A stretch of DNA of 56,517 bases from Bacteroidales bacterium (lineage in GTDB: Bacteria; Bacteroidota; Bacteroidia; Bacteroidales; UBA932): contig JAQXKS010000006.1 of the NCBI GenBank assembly GCA_029010575.1, forward strand, positions 1-56,517. The letters run 5' to 3'. Position 1 is the stretch's first letter. Each line of letters opens with the position of its first letter. A program made the translations under genes and the position numbers. Positions 17,019 to 25,839 of the stretch are shown here, piece after piece. The notes under the pieces are model-generated. The model was not told the DNA's origin and made no database searches. It saw only the letters and a program-made list of their open reading frames with translations.

Positions 17019-17969
17019 TTAATCAAGTGACTGTCCAGTATTTAGAACGACAGTCAGAAAATCCTCATAATCATTCATATCAAGTTCCGAAATGAAATAG
17101 TTCATCGGATCTGAAGGTTCCCCATTAAAGATAACTTGATAATGGAGGTGAGGTGCAAAAGATGTACCTGTATTGCCTACACGACCAATAATTTTACCCG
17201 CTTGGACCATCTGCCCGTTTCGTACCAGAATGTCTGAAAGATGTGAATAAGTGGTAACATATCCGTTAAGATGGTCTATCTCTACGACATTCCCCCTATT
17301 CCTCTTTGACCTTTCCACTTTGATCACCTTACCTGAGGCAGTAGCCATAACATCTGTCCCGATAGGAGCAATCAAATCCATGCCATCATGAAAAACAAGT
17401 TGCTTGTAGAACGGATGGATTTTGCGACCCAGAGAAGCCCCGATATTGGATGGCGAAATATTCGCTATTGGGATAATAGAGGGTATGCCATCCATTGAAA
17501 AATCATTGAAACCAAGTACTTCATCCAGCAGAGCCTCACAATAATCAAAGCTGGAAGATACCATCTCTATCCTCTCTTTGGTATGTAGGACAAGAGATGC
17601 TCCGAATGTAGTATCTGCCGCATAAGAGGTAATCGAATCATCTGATACTCTGAAAGATATTTCAGGAAACCCAGTATTGAAAATATCCGAATAAATCCTT
17701 TCATCTTTAGATTGAAGATCGTTCACCACCTTCTCGAGCAGTTCTACTTTGGAATTCAGATCATCATATTCCCTCTGCATCAGCTCCGTTTCCCTTTGCT
17801 TGCGGGTATCTTCACTGCTTGTAACAATTAGAGAGTACAATAAGTATAGAATTAAAGCTACACAGACAGCCTTCAATAGAAACAATGCCACCTTCCTGAC
17901 ATAGTACCAGAAGGAGTGACTGTCTTCTACAAACTCCAACTTCTCTTTGTCATATCTGAGTTTTCCCAT
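17019..17969 (-). CDS. Membrane-anchored M23 peptidase, second copy
   Basis: A 316-residue protein with a short cytoplasmic start, one membrane helix (about 27-50), a coiled-coil region (to about 95) and a LytM/M23 zinc endopeptidase domain. Zinc ligands and catalytic residues are present (FHDGMDL, TYSHLSD, HLHYQV), so it should cleave or bind peptidoglycan peptides in the periplasm. It shares architecture and N-terminal sequence style with the gene just upstream, pointing to an old tandem duplication. Spacing to that gene is one base. Confidence 0.9.
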   Translation of the reverse strand: MGKLRYDKEKLEFVEDSHSFWYYVRKVALFLLKAVCVALILYLLYSLIVTSSEDTRKQRETELMQREYDDLNSKVELLEKVVNDLQSKDERIYSDIFNTGFPEISFRVSDDSITSYAADTTFGASLVLHTKERIEMVSSSFDYCEALLDEVLGFNDFSMDGIPSIIPIANISPSNIGASLGRKIHPFYKQLVFHDGMDLIAPIGTDVMATASGKVIKVERSKRNRGNVVEIDHLNGYVTTYSHLSDILVRNGQMVQAGKIIGRVGNTGTSFAPHLHYQVIFNGEPSDPMNYFISELDMNDYEDFLTVVLNTGQSLD

Positions 17970-17970
17970 A

Positions 17971-18954
17971 TCAGCTTAAAGGAATCTCCGGAGAATCTAT
18001 GATCGAGTTAAAATCTTCAGCGGCCAAATCCTTGTCATAGTAGTTAAGAGGATTGACCGGCTTGCCCATATAAATCACCTCATAATGCAGGTGTGTACCG
18101 GTAGAACGGCCAGTATTGCCCATTTCTCCAATCTGCTGGCCGCGCTTGAGTTTTTGACCCACTGCCACATTGGATTTCCTCAGATGAGCATATCTTGTCA
18201 CATAACCAAAACCGTGATCTACCGTCACATAGTTGCCAAAGCCGCCCATCTGGAAAGAGACTGCAGTAACCACGCCATCTCCGGTAACATATACGGGTTC
18301 TCCGTCCTGACCTGAACGGGGTGCCAAGTCTACGCCATTATGATGTCTCATCCTAGCCTTGGTAATCGGATCACGACGCATGCCGAAACCTGACGTATGT
18401 CTTACGTTCTCGAACTTTACGGGTGGAATATTCGGAACACAAGAGACCATCTCCTCAGCTCTGTCTGAAAAGAGGGTAATCTGATCAAACGATTTGGACT
18501 GAAGATATGCCTTCTTGGTGAGGACATCAGACTCTATAACCATAGAGGTAACCTTTCCAAAAGGGTCAGTAGCTGTCAGATACGAATATCTGTCCACACC
18601 GCCATAACCTGCTTCGCGGACATCCGACGATATGGGCTCCATACCGAATATCAGGCGGTATAGATTATTGTCCCTCATCTCCATGGCATGCAGCTGTCCC
18701 CTCACGTTATCCATCCTCCTGACTACAATTTCCATCTTGGACCTCCACTCTTTAGATCTCTTGTCAATCATATACGACTTGGGGTTTTTAATATCATATT
18801 TGTCACCGACGAAGAGCATGAGCACGAACATAGCAACCCCCACCAGAACGAACGGAAGAACCGATTTGGTGTAGAGCCAGAACTCTGAGGGAGACTTTAC
18901 GACATCGTAATTGAGTGTCTCTTTGTTAAATATGTATCTCTTAGTCCTTTTCAT
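17971..18954 (-). CDS. Membrane-anchored M23 peptidase, first copy
   Basis: A 327-residue protein: cytoplasmic start with YIFNKETLNYDVV, membrane helix near 30-49, a linker with a short coiled coil, then an M23 domain with the full set of residues (HHNGVDL, RYAHLRK, HLHYEV). Such proteins trim peptidoglycan cross-links or activate amidases. Its ATG overlaps the stop region of the thiamine kinase gene by one base. It is paralogous to the next gene. Confidence 0.92.
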   Translation of the reverse strand: MKRTKRYIFNKETLNYDVVKSPSEFWLYTKSVLPFVLVGVAMFVLMLFVGDKYDIKNPKSYMIDKRSKEWRSKMEIVVRRMDNVRGQLHAMEMRDNNLYRLIFGMEPISSDVREAGYGGVDRYSYLTATDPFGKVTSMVIESDVLTKKAYLQSKSFDQITLFSDRAEEMVSCVPNIPPVKFENVRHTSGFGMRRDPITKARMRHHNGVDLAPRSGQDGEPVYVTGDGVVTAVSFQMGGFGNYVTVDHGFGYVTRYAHLRKSNVAVGQKLKRGQQIGEMGNTGRSTGTHLHYEVIYMGKPVNPLNYYDKDLAAEDFNSIIDSPEIPLS

Positions 18955-19661
18955 TAACGGGCAAAAGTAATTATTTCTCTGATATTTACAAAAAAAGATG
19001 CAAAATAGATTAAAGCCTTTCCGTTTTTATCAAACTCAAGGGAGAGGGTACAAGAGTTCGTTCTGTTCAAGGTCGCCTTCCACCACATATCGAAAACAAC
19101 AGAATCGGTTGGATACTCCAGACCTGTACTCTTGATTCTCAAATTCCTGTCAAAAGCAAAAAGGGAGACAGGAATACCTGCACACACATTGAATGAAGCA
19201 GAACCATGCAGAGGGAAGAAAGTCCCCTCGTCAGTCACAAGAGCAATTCTTCCGGTGTAACCCATATCCAACAGAACCTTGTTAAAATCTGCCAGAAGAG
19301 ATATATTTGCTAAAGTATGGTCCTCCCTCTTCCCTGTAGCTCCATAAACAGTAATAAAGAAATTCGGATCAGGAGCAGACTCGACAATCAGGGAACATAC
19401 AAACCTGAAACACTTGGAGAGATCATTGGTCTGCTGCTCAGAGATATGGATAACCCTATCGGAGAATTTTTCCCGCATAAGCGCAGAGATGGAATCCAGA
19501 TCTCCAACAATATAGTCAGGCTCCCTAAATGGAAAAAGATTCTCCACTGCCCCGTCACAACACACAACCATGTCTGAAGCCAAGAGCCCTGTGAGAACCT
19601 GCTCGTTTACAGGGAAAGCTCCGTTACAGAGAATCGCACACTCTTTCCAACCCTTTTTCAT
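18954..19661 (-). CDS. Thiamine diphosphokinase
   Basis: Converts thiamine to thiamine diphosphate with ATP. The 235-residue protein from ATG 19661 (a Met two codons earlier is possible) has the signature DYIVGDLDSIS near 50 and the GATGKREDHTLANI segment near 110, both typical of the active site. It lies in the large minus-strand gene run, between the LptG-Fmt gene and the M23 pair, with very small gaps. Confidence 0.88.
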   Translation of the reverse strand: MKKGWKECAILCNGAFPVNEQVLTGLLASDMVVCCDGAVENLFPFREPDYIVGDLDSISALMREKFSDRVIHISEQQTNDLSKCFRFVCSLIVESAPDPNFFITVYGATGKREDHTLANISLLADFNKVLLDMGYTGRIALVTDEGTFFPLHGSASFNVCAGIPVSLFAFDRNLRIKSTGLEYPTDSVVFDMWWKATLNRTNSCTLSLEFDKNGKALIYFASFFVNIREIITFAR

Positions 19662-19673
19662 AAACATATTGTT

Positions 19674-22103
19674 CTATTCAAAACGTGCTCCTTCGCCCCT
19701 GAATCCCAGAAGAAAGTCAGAAGCGCTCAAACGTCTTTTGCCAGGTATCTGAAGTTCAAGAATTTCAATGGCACCATCGGCACATCCCACAAAGAGCCTT
19801 CTGCCATCTTTTGCCACTTCACCGCAATGAAGGTCTGTAGGAGTCCGGCTATCATCAGAGGGCACTGCCACAGAATAGATCTTTACATCCATAACATCAT
19901 CATCACATACCAGATTAGAATGGGCAGCTGGAACGGGAGAGAGACCCCTGACCAGATTCATCACATTCCTGCGAGTAGAGTTCCAATCTATACGCAATGT
20001 CTCTGCAGTGAGCTTGGGCGCATATCGGGCATACTCCGGAACAGATTCTATATCCGACTGAGGAACTGGCTCTACAGTACCATTGGCAAGAGCATCGACA
20101 CTCTTGAGGACAAGACGGGCCCCGATTCGCTGGAGCTGTTCATAAAGTTCCCCAACTGTTTCATCTTCAGATATGGATACAGATTCAGACATGATAATGG
20201 AACCGGTATCAATCTTATCATCAAGGAGGAAAGTAGTAACACCGCTCTCGGTCTCACCATTGATGATGGCCCAGTTCATGGGAGCCGCCCCGCGATACTT
20301 GGGCAGAAGGGAAGAATGGAGGTTAAAAGTACCGAAACGGGGCATAGACCAGATGGCACGCGGCAACATCCTGAAAGCAACGACTACGAATATATCTGCA
20401 TTGATCTCTTCAAGCCGACTCTTGAACCCAGGGTCCTTAAGAGACTCCGGTTGCAACAGCTCTATAGGTGAATGTTCTCCATCCTCACCCAGCGAGAGAA
20501 GATACTTCTTGACAGGAGAGTATGACACCTTAAGACCCCTGCCGCTCTTGCGGTCGGGAACAGTGACTACAGCAGCCACATCATAGCCACCCTCAATGAG
20601 GGTCTTCAGGGACTCGACAGCAAATTCCGGAGTCCCCATAAATACTATTTTTGGTTTAATCTTTCCTTTGGTTAACATAATGACCTTCCTGAATACTTTC
20701 TTAATTGCCTGAATATATGAATCTATATTGAAAATTGCCGAATCTTTGGTAGACTTCCATGTTAGGAAAACACTTATAGGCAGCAGGACCATTGTAGAGA
20801 GAAATGCTCCCAACTCAGGTGTTATTGCCCCATCCTTGGCCAGTTTCTTTCCAGAAATATCCACCACCCAATAGAGGACAAAAAACATAGAAGAGACAAT
20901 CATGGGTGTTCCCAGTCCTCCTTTTCTGATAATAGCCCCCAAAGGTGCACCTATGAAGAAGAAAATCAAACATGCAAAAGAGAGGGTAAACTTCCTCATA
21001 TACTCCAGATCTATCCTTCTAAGATAGTAGGTATGCTGATTTATCTCCCTGTCGTACGTCTGCATCGTCTGTATAGACTTCTTTACAGCCTTTAATGCCC
21101 CTTCTACGGCACTGAGTTCTGATTGATGCGAAGCGCAGGCCATCAAGGTATCCACGTCAAAACGGGAGCTGAGTCCCTTGTTCTTTGCAGTATCCAACTG
21201 TGAAGCCTTTTCAAGCGCAATGGAGTAGTTGACATTCAGCTCATGTTCAGTTATTGTCTTGTCGTATTTGGCTCCGATAGAGTCCCGGTCATTCCTTAAC
21301 TGCTCGAGATTCCTCGCCATGATATCAGAGCCATATCTCTCCTTTTCAGATTTTTGAAAAGAGTAGTTTTCCAGGGGGATGACTACCTCTTGCATGGAAA
21401 AATCCACCCGATTCACTTCACTCACTGTATCCTTGTATGAGAGTTTGGTATTCTCCTCATAAGATACTCCGCTATATAGAGTAAAGAGAAGAGCTTTCTT
21501 GTCTGCTGTAGAGCGGATCATACCTGAATCAGCAATAGCCAAAGAGACATTTCCCTTATTTGATGTATGGTTGTAGACCATTACACCATACATCATTCCA
21601 GTCTCCTTATTACGGTCATCGACTCTGAGGGAATATCCGTCGATACCATTGTAGAAAGTACCTGTGGGAATCTTTATCTCCTCCTTAGTCTTTGAGATAT
21701 CATACTGAAGAGTATATATCTTGTTGTAAGCCAAAGGAATAAGATTATTTGAAACAAAGAATGCAGAGATGCTGATCACTATTGCCACATAGACAAGCGG
21801 ATAGAGTGCCCTCTGGAGCGAAATGCCCGCAGCCTTCATGGAGAGCAGTTCATTATGTTCTCCGAAATTACCGAAGGTCATAATTGAAGCCAGAAGAGTG
21901 GAGAGGGGCATGGTATATGGAAGCGTTGTTGCCGATCCCCAGCCCAGAAACTCCAAAATCACCCATATACTCAGACCTTTCCCTACCAGGTCATCTATGT
22001 ACATCCACAGGAACTGCATCACGAATATGAATGCCGTGACGAAGAAGGTCATGAGGAATGGGCCGAAAAATGACTTGAGTATGAAAAGGTCGAGTTTTTT
22101 CAT
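19674..22103 (-). CDS. LptG-type permease fused to methionyl-tRNA formyltransferase
   Basis: One open frame of 809 residues. Residues 1-475 are a YjgP/YjgQ (LptF/LptG) permease: three N-terminal membrane helices, a periplasmic beta domain, and three C-terminal helices (about 370-450). This module moves lipopolysaccharide out of the inner membrane. Residues 476-809 are a complete formyltransferase: MGTPEF at 489-494, catalytic N594 and H596 in the NLHSSLLPKYRG block, and D632 in DKIDTGS, spaced as in known Fmt. Fmt formylates initiator Met-tRNA. An in-frame Met at 476 (20678) could give a free Fmt. No stop or frame change separates the domains. Both neighbours, alaS and thiamine kinase, are close. 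Confidence 0.88.
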   Translation of the reverse strand: MKKLDLFILKSFFGPFLMTFFVTAFIFVMQFLWMYIDDLVGKGLSIWVILEFLGWGSATTLPYTMPLSTLLASIMTFGNFGEHNELLSMKAAGISLQRALYPLVYVAIVISISAFFVSNNLIPLAYNKIYTLQYDISKTKEEIKIPTGTFYNGIDGYSLRVDDRNKETGMMYGVMVYNHTSNKGNVSLAIADSGMIRSTADKKALLFTLYSGVSYEENTKLSYKDTVSEVNRVDFSMQEVVIPLENYSFQKSEKERYGSDIMARNLEQLRNDRDSIGAKYDKTITEHELNVNYSIALEKASQLDTAKNKGLSSRFDVDTLMACASHQSELSAVEGALKAVKKSIQTMQTYDREINQHTYYLRRIDLEYMRKFTLSFACLIFFFIGAPLGAIIRKGGLGTPMIVSSMFFVLYWVVDISGKKLAKDGAITPELGAFLSTMVLLPISVFLTWKSTKDSAIFNIDSYIQAIKKVFRKVIMLTKGKIKPKIVFMGTPEFAVESLKTLIEGGYDVAAVVTVPDRKSGRGLKVSYSPVKKYLLSLGEDGEHSPIELLQPESLKDPGFKSRLEEINADIFVVVAFRMLPRAIWSMPRFGTFNLHSSLLPKYRGAAPMNWAIINGETESGVTTFLLDDKIDTGSIIMSESVSISEDETVGELYEQLQRIGARLVLKSVDALANGTVEPVPQSDIESVPEYARYAPKLTAETLRIDWNSTRRNVMNLVRGLSPVPAAHSNLVCDDDVMDVKIYSVAVPSDDSRTPTDLHCGEVAKDGRRLFVGCADGAIEILELQIPGKRRLSASDFLLGFRGEGARFE

Positions 22104-22105
22104 TG

Positions 22106-24727
22106 TTACTGCTGGATTGCTAGTTCTCTTAATTTTTCAAATGCAGTGGAGAGTGCATCAGCATTCTTGCCACCGGCAGTTGCAAGGAAAGCCTGTCCGC
22201 CACCGCCTCCCTGAATCAGTTTTGCAGCCTCCTTGACATCCTTGCCCGCATTTGCGCCGTTCTTTACCAAATCATCGGTATACATCAGCAGAAGCGAAGG
22301 CTTGCTGTCAGGTGTCTTGAAAGCAGCAACCATTGCAGCAGAAGAGAATTCCTTATAAAGTTGGAAAGCTACCTCCTTTACAACCTCAGGAGCAAAAGAG
22401 CCGGCTATTGAGAAGAGCCTGATTCCGTTTATCTCTTCACTCATCTGCACAATTGTCTTCTTGAGCGAAGCGATCCTTTCGCGAACCGCCTCCTCGATTG
22501 ATTTCTTGTAACTTTCGTTCTCCTTGATGAGCTTCTTGACACTATTGACAATGTCAGGAGTACCTTCAAAGAACTCTTTCATGGTTATAAGGGTATCTTC
22601 CAACGAATAAATGTACGCTTCAACACCTGAGCCGGTAGTAGCCTCGATACGACGAACACCGGCAGCCACAGCGGATTCGGAGAGAATCTTTAACATACCA
22701 AGCGAACCGGTAGAGGCAGCGTGAGTTCCACCACACAGTTCGATAGAATCCCCGAACTTGACAGCTCTTACCCTGTTGCCATATTTTTCACCGAAGAGCG
22801 CCATTGCACCCATCGCCTTAGCCTCATCGATAGGAATATCACGGAACTCCTGCTTTGCGAAATCTTCCCTAATGAGTGCATTGACTATCTTCTCAACCTC
22901 TCTTAACTGCTCGTGTGTCACCTTTTCAAAATGCGAAAAGTCGAAACGCAAGTAGTTGGAATTAACATACGAACCCTTCTGCTCTATATGAGTGCCAAGA
23001 ACCTTGCGAAGAGCATAATGAAGCAGATGGGTAGCAGTATGATTATTTGCTGTTTCATTCCTCTTTTCCTTATCCACACAGGCTATAAAACTTTCAGCGG
23101 GATTTGAAGGAATCCTTTCGGAGAAGTGGATATTGAGATTGTTCTCCTTTTTGGTATTGATAATCTGTATCTTCTCAGAGGTCTCTGAAGAGATGATATA
23201 TCCAGTATCACCCACCTGTCCACCACTCTCAGCATAGAAGGGGGAGTTATCGAATACGAGCTGGTAGAGCTCCTTACCTTTGGTCTTGACAGTTCTGTAT
23301 TTTACAATATTTACAGGACATTCCAAAGTATCGTAACCCACAAAGCGTGGTTGTTCACAATCACTCACCACAATCCAGTCACCCTCTTCCACAGCAGAGG
23401 CGTTGCGAGCCCTCTCCTTCTGTTTTGCAAGTTCTTCTTCAAAGCCCTTGACATCGACAGTAAATCCATGCTCCTTAGCTATCAACTCACTCAAATCGAG
23501 AGGGAATCCGAATGTGTCGTAGAGAGTAAACGTATCCTTTCCTGAAATAACATGAGTATCAGCAGACCTTTCCATTACGCCGTTAATAAGACCAATCCCC
23601 TTTTCAAGTGTTCTGAGGAATGCCTCCTCCTCTTCCTTGATTACCTTCTCGATAAGGATCTGTTGTTTTACGAGTTCAGGGTAGGCGTCACCCATAACCT
23701 CTACCAGAGTGGATACCAGTCGGCACAGGAAAGGTGTATTGAAGCCCAGAAAGGTATAACCGTACCTGACAGCACGTCTGAGGATACGTCTGATAACATA
23801 GCCAGCCTTTACATTAGAAGGCAGCTGACCGTCTGCTATAGAGAAAGAGATGGCACGGATATGGTCAGCAATCACGCGCATTGCGACATCCACATTCTCA
23901 TCCTTGCCGTACTCCTTGCCGCACAGTTCTACGATTTTTGCGATTATATCGGTAAACATATCACCTTGATAGTTACTGGTATTGCCATTTACAGCCATAA
24001 CCAGACGCTCGAATCCCATACCGGTATCGACATGCTTCTGAGGAAGCTGCTCCAGTTCTCCGTTTGCCTTTCTGTTATACTGCATGAAGACAAGGTTCCA
24101 TATCTCTATCACCAGATGATGTCCCTTGTTCACAAGTTCTGCACCAGGTAGAGCTGCTCTTTCATCATCGCTTCTCAAATCGATATGAATTTCACTGCAC
24201 GGACCGCAAGGGCCGGTATCTCCCATTTCCCAAAAATTATCTTTCTTGTTACCAAGCAGAATCCTCTCTTTGGGTAGGAATCTCTCCCATATTTCCAAAG
24301 CTTCGTTATCAAGATCAGTTCCATCTTTCTTGTCTCCTTCGAATACAGTCGCATACAGTCTTTCAGGATCAAGCTTATAAACCTGGGTAAGAAGTTCCCA
24401 TGCCCACTCTATTGCCTCTTTCTTAAAATAGTCTCCGAAGCTCCAGTTTCCGAGCATTTCGAACATTGTATGGTGATAAGAGTCATGTCCGACCTCTTCA
24501 AGGTCATTGTGCTTTCCGCTGACACGAAGACACTTCTGACTATCCGCCACCCTATGGTACTGTGCAGGTGTATTGCCAAGAAACCACTCTTTGAACTGGT
24601 TCATACCGGCATTTGTGAACATTAGTGTAGGGTCTCCCTTAACTACCATAGGAGCAGAGGGGACAACCTGATGACCTTTTGACGCAAAAAAGTCCAAAAA
24701 CGTTTTTCTAATCTCTTTGGAAGTCAT
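22106..24727 (-). CDS. alaS: Alanyl-tRNA synthetase
   Basis: Class II synthetase of 873 residues, the normal length. The catalytic domain shows [14 protein letters not shown], the editing domain [12 protein letters not shown] and the CGGTH zinc motif, and the C-terminal domain ends in a glycine-rich [14 protein letters not shown] segment. It charges tRNA-Ala and removes mischarged serine. It sits two bases before the LptG-Fmt gene and 20 bases after the LptF-type gene. Confidence 0.97.
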
Positions 24728-24747
24728 AATAATTAAGCTTTAATTCT

Positions 24748-25839
24748 TTATTTGGGTGCCATGCGGTAAAGCACTGCTGCAACAATTGCATATAGAAAAT
24801 TCGGGATCCACAGGGCGAGCCAAGGCGGCAAAGTATCGGTAATAACAAACATCTGGCTGAAACGCAGAAACAGGATGTAGGAAAAACTCAGGGCAATACC
24901 TACACCAAGATTAATTCCGATACCTCCCCTTTTCTTTCTAGATGAGAGAGAGACACCTATAAGGGTGAGGATGAAGGTGGAAAACGGGACTGCAAAACGG
25001 GTATTCTTCTCAATAAGTGAATACTTTATCATACTATCCCCTCTCATCCTCTGAGTATCAATAAGATCATTGAGACTGTTATAGTCAAGATCCTCAACAG
25101 TGTTCTCTTTCCTATAAAAATCCTCTATGGTCAGCGAAATAACAGTATCAAGTTCCTTTCCGAATTTAACCTTCTGCCTTGTTGTGGAATAATCCCTTAT
25201 AGAATAATTCTTGAGACGCCATCCACCGAATGTAGTATCCCAGGCAGCACTTTCTGCCGAGAGCTTGGAGACAAGACGGTTTGCGCGGGTAGTCTCAAGA
25301 GTAAACTTATATGCGACATTGTTCCATGTACTGAAGGACTCCACATAGACATACTCTCCGGGAGCAATCTGATAATGTACATTCCTGCTGGTATTGTAGA
25401 ACTTCGAATACTTGACATATTTCCCCTCAAACTCATGCCTTCTGGCATTGGCATTAGGGATTACATAAAGATTGAGCACAAGGCTCATGGAGGCAATTAT
25501 CAGTGAAGATATGAAATAGGGATACATCAAACGGGCGAAACTGATTCCCCCGGAAAGCATCGCAACTATTTCACTCCTGCCGGCAAGCTTGGAAGTGAAG
25601 AATATAACAGTGATAAAGACAAAAAGGGAACTGAACATATTGGCGTAGTACGGAATTACGTAAATATAGTAATCCATTACTATCTGCTTCAATGTGAGCT
25701 GATTTTCAACGAAATCATCTATCTTCTCGCTGATATCGAATATGATCACTATACAAATGATAATCAACAGGGCCATAAAATATGTCCCGATAAACTTTTT
25801 GATTATATATTTGTCTATTTTGGTGATCTTAAAATTCAT
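24748..25839 (-). CDS. LptF/LptG family permease
   Basis: A 363-residue inner-membrane protein with six predicted helices (three at the start, three from about 275) flanking a periplasmic beta-rich domain. It is the likely partner of the permease half of the fusion protein at 19674-22103: LptF and LptG form a heterodimer that, with the LptB ATPase, extracts lipopolysaccharide. Which of the two is F and which is G cannot be settled here. A gene of this type beside tgt is common in Bacteroidota. Spacing to tgt is 13 bases. Confidence 0.9.
   Translation of the reverse strand: MNFKITKIDKYIIKKFIGTYFMALLIIICIVIIFDISEKIDDFVENQLTLKQIVMDYYIYVIPYYANMFSSLFVFITVIFFTSKLAGRSEIVAMLSGGISFARLMYPYFISSLIIASMSLVLNLYVIPNANARRHEFEGKYVKYSKFYNTSRNVHYQIAPGEYVYVESFSTWNNVAYKFTLETTRANRLVSKLSAESAAWDTTFGGWRLKNYSIRDYSTTRQKVKFGKELDTVISLTIEDFYRKENTVEDLDYNSLNDLIDTQRMRGDSMIKYSLIEKNTRFAVPFSTFILTLIGVSLSSRKKRGGIGINLGVGIALSFSYILFLRFSQMFVITDTLPPWLALWIPNFLYAIVAAVLYRMAPK

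Follow-up and report, generated by a model that had tools for sequence, protein, structure and literature searches.

An in-frame fusion of an LptF-type permease and methionyl-tRNA formyltransferase in Bacteroidales

Can the enzyme that formylates the initiator tRNA be part of the same polypeptide as a subunit of the lipopolysaccharide (LPS) exporter? Methionyl-tRNA formyltransferase (Fmt) is usually taken to be free in the cytosol, and LptF to be nothing more than a subunit of a transporter. The question is raised by a Bacteroidales contig of 56,517 nucleotides (the window, meaning the whole stretch of DNA that was analyzed), where the open-frame reading gives one frame of 809 codons plus a stop codon, free of internal stops, at positions 19674 to 22103 of the minus strand. 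An earlier note on this DNA had read the frame as a permease joined to a complete Fmt.

The fused frame and its genomic context

The features of the locus are as follows:

19674..22103, minus strand: fused gene lptF::fmt (continuous frame, Pfam and NCBIfam matches, same frame in relatives)
20754..22103, minus strand: LptF-type permease half, residues 1 to 450 (Pfam LptF_LptG; one of two such genes in the genome)
21825..21875, minus strand: coupling-helix region, residues 77 to 93, with E85 and G93 (invariance in 99 fused proteins and a published consensus)
20655..20753, minus strand: linker, residues 451 to 483, basic and amphipathic (sequence, dN/dS, amphipathicity)
20676..20678, minus strand: Met476 codon, a possible relic of an old fmt start (two-gene relatives start fmt nearby; no counterpart in many fusions)
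19677..20654, minus strand: Fmt half, residues 484 to 809, catalytic and C-terminal domains (Pfam, TIGR00460, PDB relatives; the genome's sole match over the fmt cut-off)
22106..24727, minus strand: alaS-like gene, named by eye from the sequence, 2 nt upstream of the fused gene (similar neighbor in relatives)
24748..25839, minus strand: separate LptG-like permease, the likely partner (Pfam and NCBIfam matches)
18954..19667, minus strand: thiamine pyrophosphokinase gene, 6 nt downstream of the fused gene (Pfam and NCBIfam)

Pfam identified a full-length LptF_LptG domain (PF03739) at residues 8 to 450, with 241.8 bits against a cut-off of 27.9, followed by Formyl_trans_N at residues 485 to 665 and Formyl_trans_C at residues 697 to 801. 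The Fmt half scored 231 bits with the NCBIfam model TIGR00460 (fmt), above its equivalog cut-off of 201.5, and aligned with solved Fmt structures, including 1fmt, in the PDB comparison. The permease half scored higher with the NCBIfam LptF model (TIGR04407, 136.5 bits) than with the LptG model (99 bits), both scores lying below the respective equivalog cut-offs of 230 and 240. Since the LptF cut-off is not reached, the permease is named LptF-type, from its domain and best score, and not as an equivalog. The LptG-type assignment of the earlier note is at odds with these scores and with the distinct LptG-like gene at 24748 to 25839. Its reading of a single frame encoding a permease and a complete Fmt is borne out by the uninterrupted codons and by the Pfam and TIGR00460 scores, and at the level of sequence it is confirmed that two conserved domains, each complete, are truly joined in frame.

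Alignment of 99 fused proteins showed that N594, H596, and D632, which we take to be N106, H108, and D144 of Escherichia coli Fmt, are invariant in all 99. The G521-R522-G523 loop is likewise invariant, including R522 of the tRNA-contact loop, presumably the counterpart of E. coli R42. The normal arrangement of the catalytic residues claimed previously is thus upheld by their invariance and by the alignment of this segment to 1fmt. In the permease half, E85 and G93 are invariant in 99 of 99 proteins; they match the conserved glutamate and glycine that a published account places in the LptF/G coupling helices, in the loop that joins helix 2 to helix 3 (PMC5082905). LptF is described in a second account as a protein of six membrane helices that acts with LptG above the LptB ATPase (PMC6703430). 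Simple hydropathy of the permease half gives five clear membrane segments rather than the six reported earlier, and helix 2 is placed through the full-length Pfam match.

TIGR00460 gave one match over the cut-off in each of 43 genomes (38 fused, 5 two-gene), and in 38 of the 38 fused genomes this match was the fused frame. Weaker, sub-cut-off TIGR00460 matches were considered as a second, free fmt gene and rejected; they are mostly frames of about 190 to 240 amino acids, likely PurN or sugar formyltransferases by tentative naming. All 32 genomes searched for peptide deformylase have it, 29 fused ones among them, which suggests that formylation is used. With no other fmt found and deformylase present, Met-tRNA(fMet) would be formylated by the product of the fused frame. 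A PF03739 search of 16 genomes found two permease genes in 12 of 13 fused and in all 3 two-gene genomes, and in G115 (80% complete) it found the fused permease alone. LptB scored over the cut-off in the window's own genome, where a second permease gene is also present, and the LptF half is a candidate partner of LptG and LptB.

Two M23 peptidase genes (17019 to 17969 and 17971 to 18954) lie back to back with 1 nt between them, downstream in the same gene run. Across the window, the Bacteroidota-type promoter pattern TTTG-N17-24-TAnnTTTG occurs 8 times against 2.0 expected, a count reached in none of 100 shuffles; sigma-70-like and terminator scans gave counts at about chance level.

The junction and the linker in relatives

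Within the genus, 18 of 19 genomes read through the junction without a stop; in 4 of these 18, stops occur solely downstream of the Fmt C terminus. The 19th genome, G004 (81% complete), gave nothing at an E value of ≤1e-30 and a single weak match at 3.9e-5. At the family level, at least 229 of the 398 genomes sampled have an open junction, comprising 148 of 150 among the matches listed, all 80 of a further set drawn from the 398, and G115; the exceptions among the 150 listed, G102 and G217, have two genes. Eight further genomes that span the junction stand outside the 229, being cut by contig ends or, in G426, broken inside LptF. Matches were obtained in 349 of the 398 family genomes, about 79 of which fall outside the matches listed (including G420, G428, G429, G430, G433, G434, G435, and G437). 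The best 80 of 585 confirmed places in the genome_contigs set comprise 78 fused loci and two that are not (L058 and L085); this set and the family genomes partly share records (for example, L043 is L004), so the two counts are not independent. Candidatus Cryptobacteroides and Candidatus Cacconaster are among the fused relatives, and the nearest record, L043, which is 99% identical, carries the label uncultured Alistipes. In GTDB, the family would probably be UBA932.

Beyond the family, a survey of 295 genomes of the order retrieved at least three that span both halves without a stop (G000, which is the window's genome, G003, and G039), all from the same family, and one genome of another family, G072, in which lptF and fmt are in frame with two stops between them. 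Among the matches listed in a survey of 296 genomes of the phylum, the window's genome alone spans both halves. The order and phylum surveys had E-value limits of 1e-100 and 1e-62, with weaker matches falling outside, and the absence of the fusion elsewhere refers to the best-scoring matches listed in the genus, family, order, and phylum surveys. Both states occur in two genera: g2 has a fused genome, G019, and an unfused one, G043, and g23 has the fused G115, known from a single assembly, and the unfused G040 and G099. Four candidates for further fusions (G075, G785, G640, and G509) were rejected, as their apparent frame length was the sum of two adjoining frames across a stop.

The earlier note had proposed a search for the same junction in other genomes and had named a hidden stop or frameshift at the junction as the error that could undo the fusion. 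The search recovered the junction almost throughout the genus and widely in the family, and an error of this kind is contradicted by the 18 open genus genomes. The surveyed genomes are mostly metagenome assemblies, and sporadic broken frames occur in relatives, which could raise the suspicion that errors of assembly or sequencing have produced the fusion; set against the open junctions of the family genomes and of the genome_contigs loci, partly shared as these records are, that suspicion retains next to no probability. The broken frames themselves lie inside the LptF half and come from single metagenome assemblies (L142/L223 in G426; G101:C48, with G101 in three pieces); they may reflect either errors or gene decay.

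The segment between the two domains was compared in 130 non-redundant fusions, obtained from 153 open junctions by removing near-copies. Measured from residue 450 to the first Fmt strand, the linker has 29 to 46 residues, and exactly 30 in 72 of the 130. Its last 22 residues carry a mean net charge of +5.6, and its helical moment of 0.43, compared with 0.25 for shuffled sequences, exceeds the shuffled mean in 123 of 130. In 18 disjoint close-relative pairs from 108 distinct fused loci, the pooled dN/dS of the linker is 0.185 (bootstrap, 0.13 to 0.25) in the fused frame and rises to 1.40 and 1.51 when the frame is shifted either way; the flanking LptF end and Fmt start give 0.12 and 0.05. Without its first ten codons, the linker has a dN/dS of 0.25 (0.17 to 0.36), a slightly weaker constraint. 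A low dN/dS in the fused frame alone shows purifying selection on the linker and indicates that it is translated in that frame. When the window's genome is compared with G003, five base changes within 23 bases fall in four linker codons and alter all four amino acids, so that this part of the linker is loosely held in that pair. These five differences are located at locus positions 2916 to 2938 of L003 and L004, whose fused proteins are 99% identical.

These properties bear on the possibility that a single chain is made and then cut in the linker to release free LptF and free Fmt. A short, basic, and probably exposed linker might invite cleavage; on the other hand, its length is nearly constant within clades and its sequence is under purifying selection, both of which are no less compatible with a structural tie, and this leaves cutting a very unlikely course.

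Free Fmt could also arise by internal initiation, and the earlier note had suggested that one gene makes two products, the full-length LptF-Fmt protein and free Fmt, through Met476. This codon is placed where two-gene relatives begin fmt and follows a purine-rich stretch, and an ATG stands at codon −6 in 38 of the 130 non-redundant fusions. However, no ATG, GTG, or TTG is found in the last 12 codons of the linker in 53 of the 130, in the last 20 codons in 39, and in the whole linker in 14. The purine-rich stretch is altered in the nearest genome, and the Bacteroidota-type promoter pattern has no minus-strand match within 19674 to 25000. As a counterpart of Met476 is missing in many fusions, a general free-Fmt product is argued against, and the two-product proposal does not hold as a general rule; a second product from an internal start such as Met476 is considered unlikely. 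Met476 is conserved in the nearest genome, G003, and is thus kept in both genomes of the window's lineage, where free Fmt is possible. The codon may be a relic of the former fmt start, and initiation at the ATG of the MGTP motif would lose the first strand of the Fmt fold.

Gene layouts and the origin of the fusion

Both halves were recovered at 147 loci, of which 124 are fused and 23 are not (L001, L138, L144, and L151, with one or both halves missing, were left out). Among the 23, L142 is in fact a fusion whose frame is broken inside LptF. In the other 22, the two-gene loci, the earliest start codon available to fmt is at −41 to +74 nt relative to the stop of lptF. The two genes overlap in different frames at 11 of the 22 and are in frame with each other, separated by one or two stops, at 7 (L036, L058, L085, L123, and L125 to L127). 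The earlier note held that close relatives with two separate genes in the same surroundings would speak against the fusion. Such relatives exist in other genera, for example L032 with an alaS-like frame upstream, but they show the source of the fusion and do not refute it.

It had also been suggested that Fmt takes the place of a C-terminal extension of the permease. Long permease frames do exist, both in other genera of the same family (609 to 681 amino acids in L232 to L236 and L239) and in other families (634 amino acids in L210 and 669 in L176). The 22 closer two-gene loci, in contrast, have LptF C-terminal tails of 28 to 68 residues, and the extension was therefore probably lost before the fusion, so that the suggestion holds for the existence of the extension and not for a direct replacement. 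More distant genera of this family have a layout that appears older: behind a long LptF come ribBA and fmt, in that order, in L232 and L233 (LptF of 629 and 638 amino acids), ribBA in L234 and L239, and fmt directly in L235 and L236. In other families, the order lptF-ribBA-fmt is found in L219, where ribBA was domain tested, and in L162 and L177, where it was read by eye; lptF-ribBA is found in L154, L176, and L210, and other neighbors in L155. These layouts suggest an order of events in which ribBA would have left, the LptF extension would have been lost, lptF and fmt would have come to overlap, and fusion would have followed.

A still longer extension belongs to a 976-amino-acid LptF-type permease at L217:1390-4317 (genome G654), whose C-terminal extension of about 500 residues matches no Pfam family; it was rejected as a further fusion. 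Shorter extensions occur in L176, L210, and L232 to L236.

Three changes between the fused and two-gene states are required by the tree, both with 132 rows (149 rows minus near-copies, with long-branch warnings) and when a mixture model is applied to 47 chosen rows (hand picked, with no long-branch warnings and with the rooting borrowed from the 132-row tree). None of 200 bootstrap trees from the 47-row mixture-model analysis can be explained by one change. L142, broken inside its LptF half, and L136, L137, and L149, cut by contig ends, were omitted from the trees. The fusion of L124 (G115) is nested among two-gene relatives, and with a two-gene rooting this implies at least two fusion origins. 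The fusion would therefore have arisen at least twice in the family, the other state changes being gains or losses. One early fusion in the main group followed by later splits, with a separate fusion in G115, would be an alternative to three fusions. Parsimony counts cannot separate gain from loss, and the seven two-gene loci with both genes in one frame speak for this alternative; the basal lineages, however, are two-gene, and the overlaps in different frames are harder to reach by splitting, so this course of events is somewhat doubtful.

The predicted bifunctional protein and its relation to known systems

The reading that best accommodates these results, and that is held with high though not full confidence, is that one gene would give one bifunctional inner-membrane protein, with Fmt tethered at the cytoplasmic face of the LPS exporter. 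The N-terminal half would be the LptF subunit of the LptB2FG exporter, its last membrane helix leading through a short, basic, amphipathic cytoplasmic tail into a complete Fmt. Both ends of LptF are cytoplasmic, and Fmt should therefore sit in the cytoplasm, held to the membrane by the tail helix. Tethering to the inner membrane, as the earlier note had it, is thus supported insofar as the in-frame fusion is real and Fmt is expected on the cytoplasmic side. Fmt held in this position would formylate Met-tRNA(fMet), for which access of substrates by diffusion should suffice, and the cell would contain one chain with both activities on the cytoplasmic side, in 1:1 supply. Adjacent lptF and fmt, often overlapping or one in-frame stop apart, would have merged into one frame at least two times in the family, the product being afterwards the sole source of Fmt and LptF.

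As a working guess, the benefit would be fixed co-supply rather than passage of a substrate between the halves, and the fusion would be kept because splitting the genes again requires a stop and a start that must both arise anew. A regulatory link is improbable. In such a link, LptF-borne Fmt would let the LPS exporter sense initiator-tRNA and folate status or be sensed in turn, with outer-membrane assembly and translation initiation adjusted to one another, or it would concentrate formylated initiator tRNA near membrane protein synthesis; selection for being physically joined would then explain why the fusion arose repeatedly and was long retained. A direct functional tie between the export of LPS and initiation is conceivable, but nothing in these results supports it.

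If the preferred reading of a single tethered protein is right, these cells would formylate their initiator tRNA at the membrane, with a component of the LPS exporter, and whether Fmt must be free becomes directly testable. A large lineage of gut bacteria seems to be without free Fmt or free LptF, and one protein seems to serve both outer-membrane construction and the initiation of protein synthesis in many of the uncultured Bacteroidales of the gut. The loci also form a graded series toward gene fusion, with a gene between, adjacent, overlapping, one stop apart, and fused. For annotation, there is a warning that the fused gene may be labeled by one half alone.

No description of an LptF-Fmt fusion was found in searches of an open-access library, as judged by titles and the openings of abstracts. 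To our knowledge, the known Fmt members are free soluble proteins. The present protein shares with E. coli Fmt (TIGR00460; PDB 1FMT and 2FMT) both domains, the catalytic asparagine, histidine, and aspartate, the GRG loop, a score over the cut-off, and a deformylase in the same genomes; it differs in that its N terminus runs on from a membrane protein and that no free copy was found. With LptF of LptB2FG (PF03739; PDB 6mjp chain F and 6mit chain F), it shares the full-length domain, the coupling-helix glutamate and glycine, and an LptG-like partner and LptB in the genome, but the permease is about 85 residues longer than 6mjp_F (366 residues), is followed by a 326-residue C-terminal enzyme, and falls below the TIGR04407 cut-off. 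The adjacent lptF and fmt of other genera of the family have the same gene order, homologous halves, and, in L032, a similar upstream neighbor, differing in being two frames with the fmt start close to the lptF stop. Formyl_trans domains are also joined to another enzyme in ArnA and 10-formyltetrahydrofolate dehydrogenase, which are soluble and act on other substrates; unlike LptF-Fmt, neither is a transporter fusion. Both halves of the protein belong to known families.
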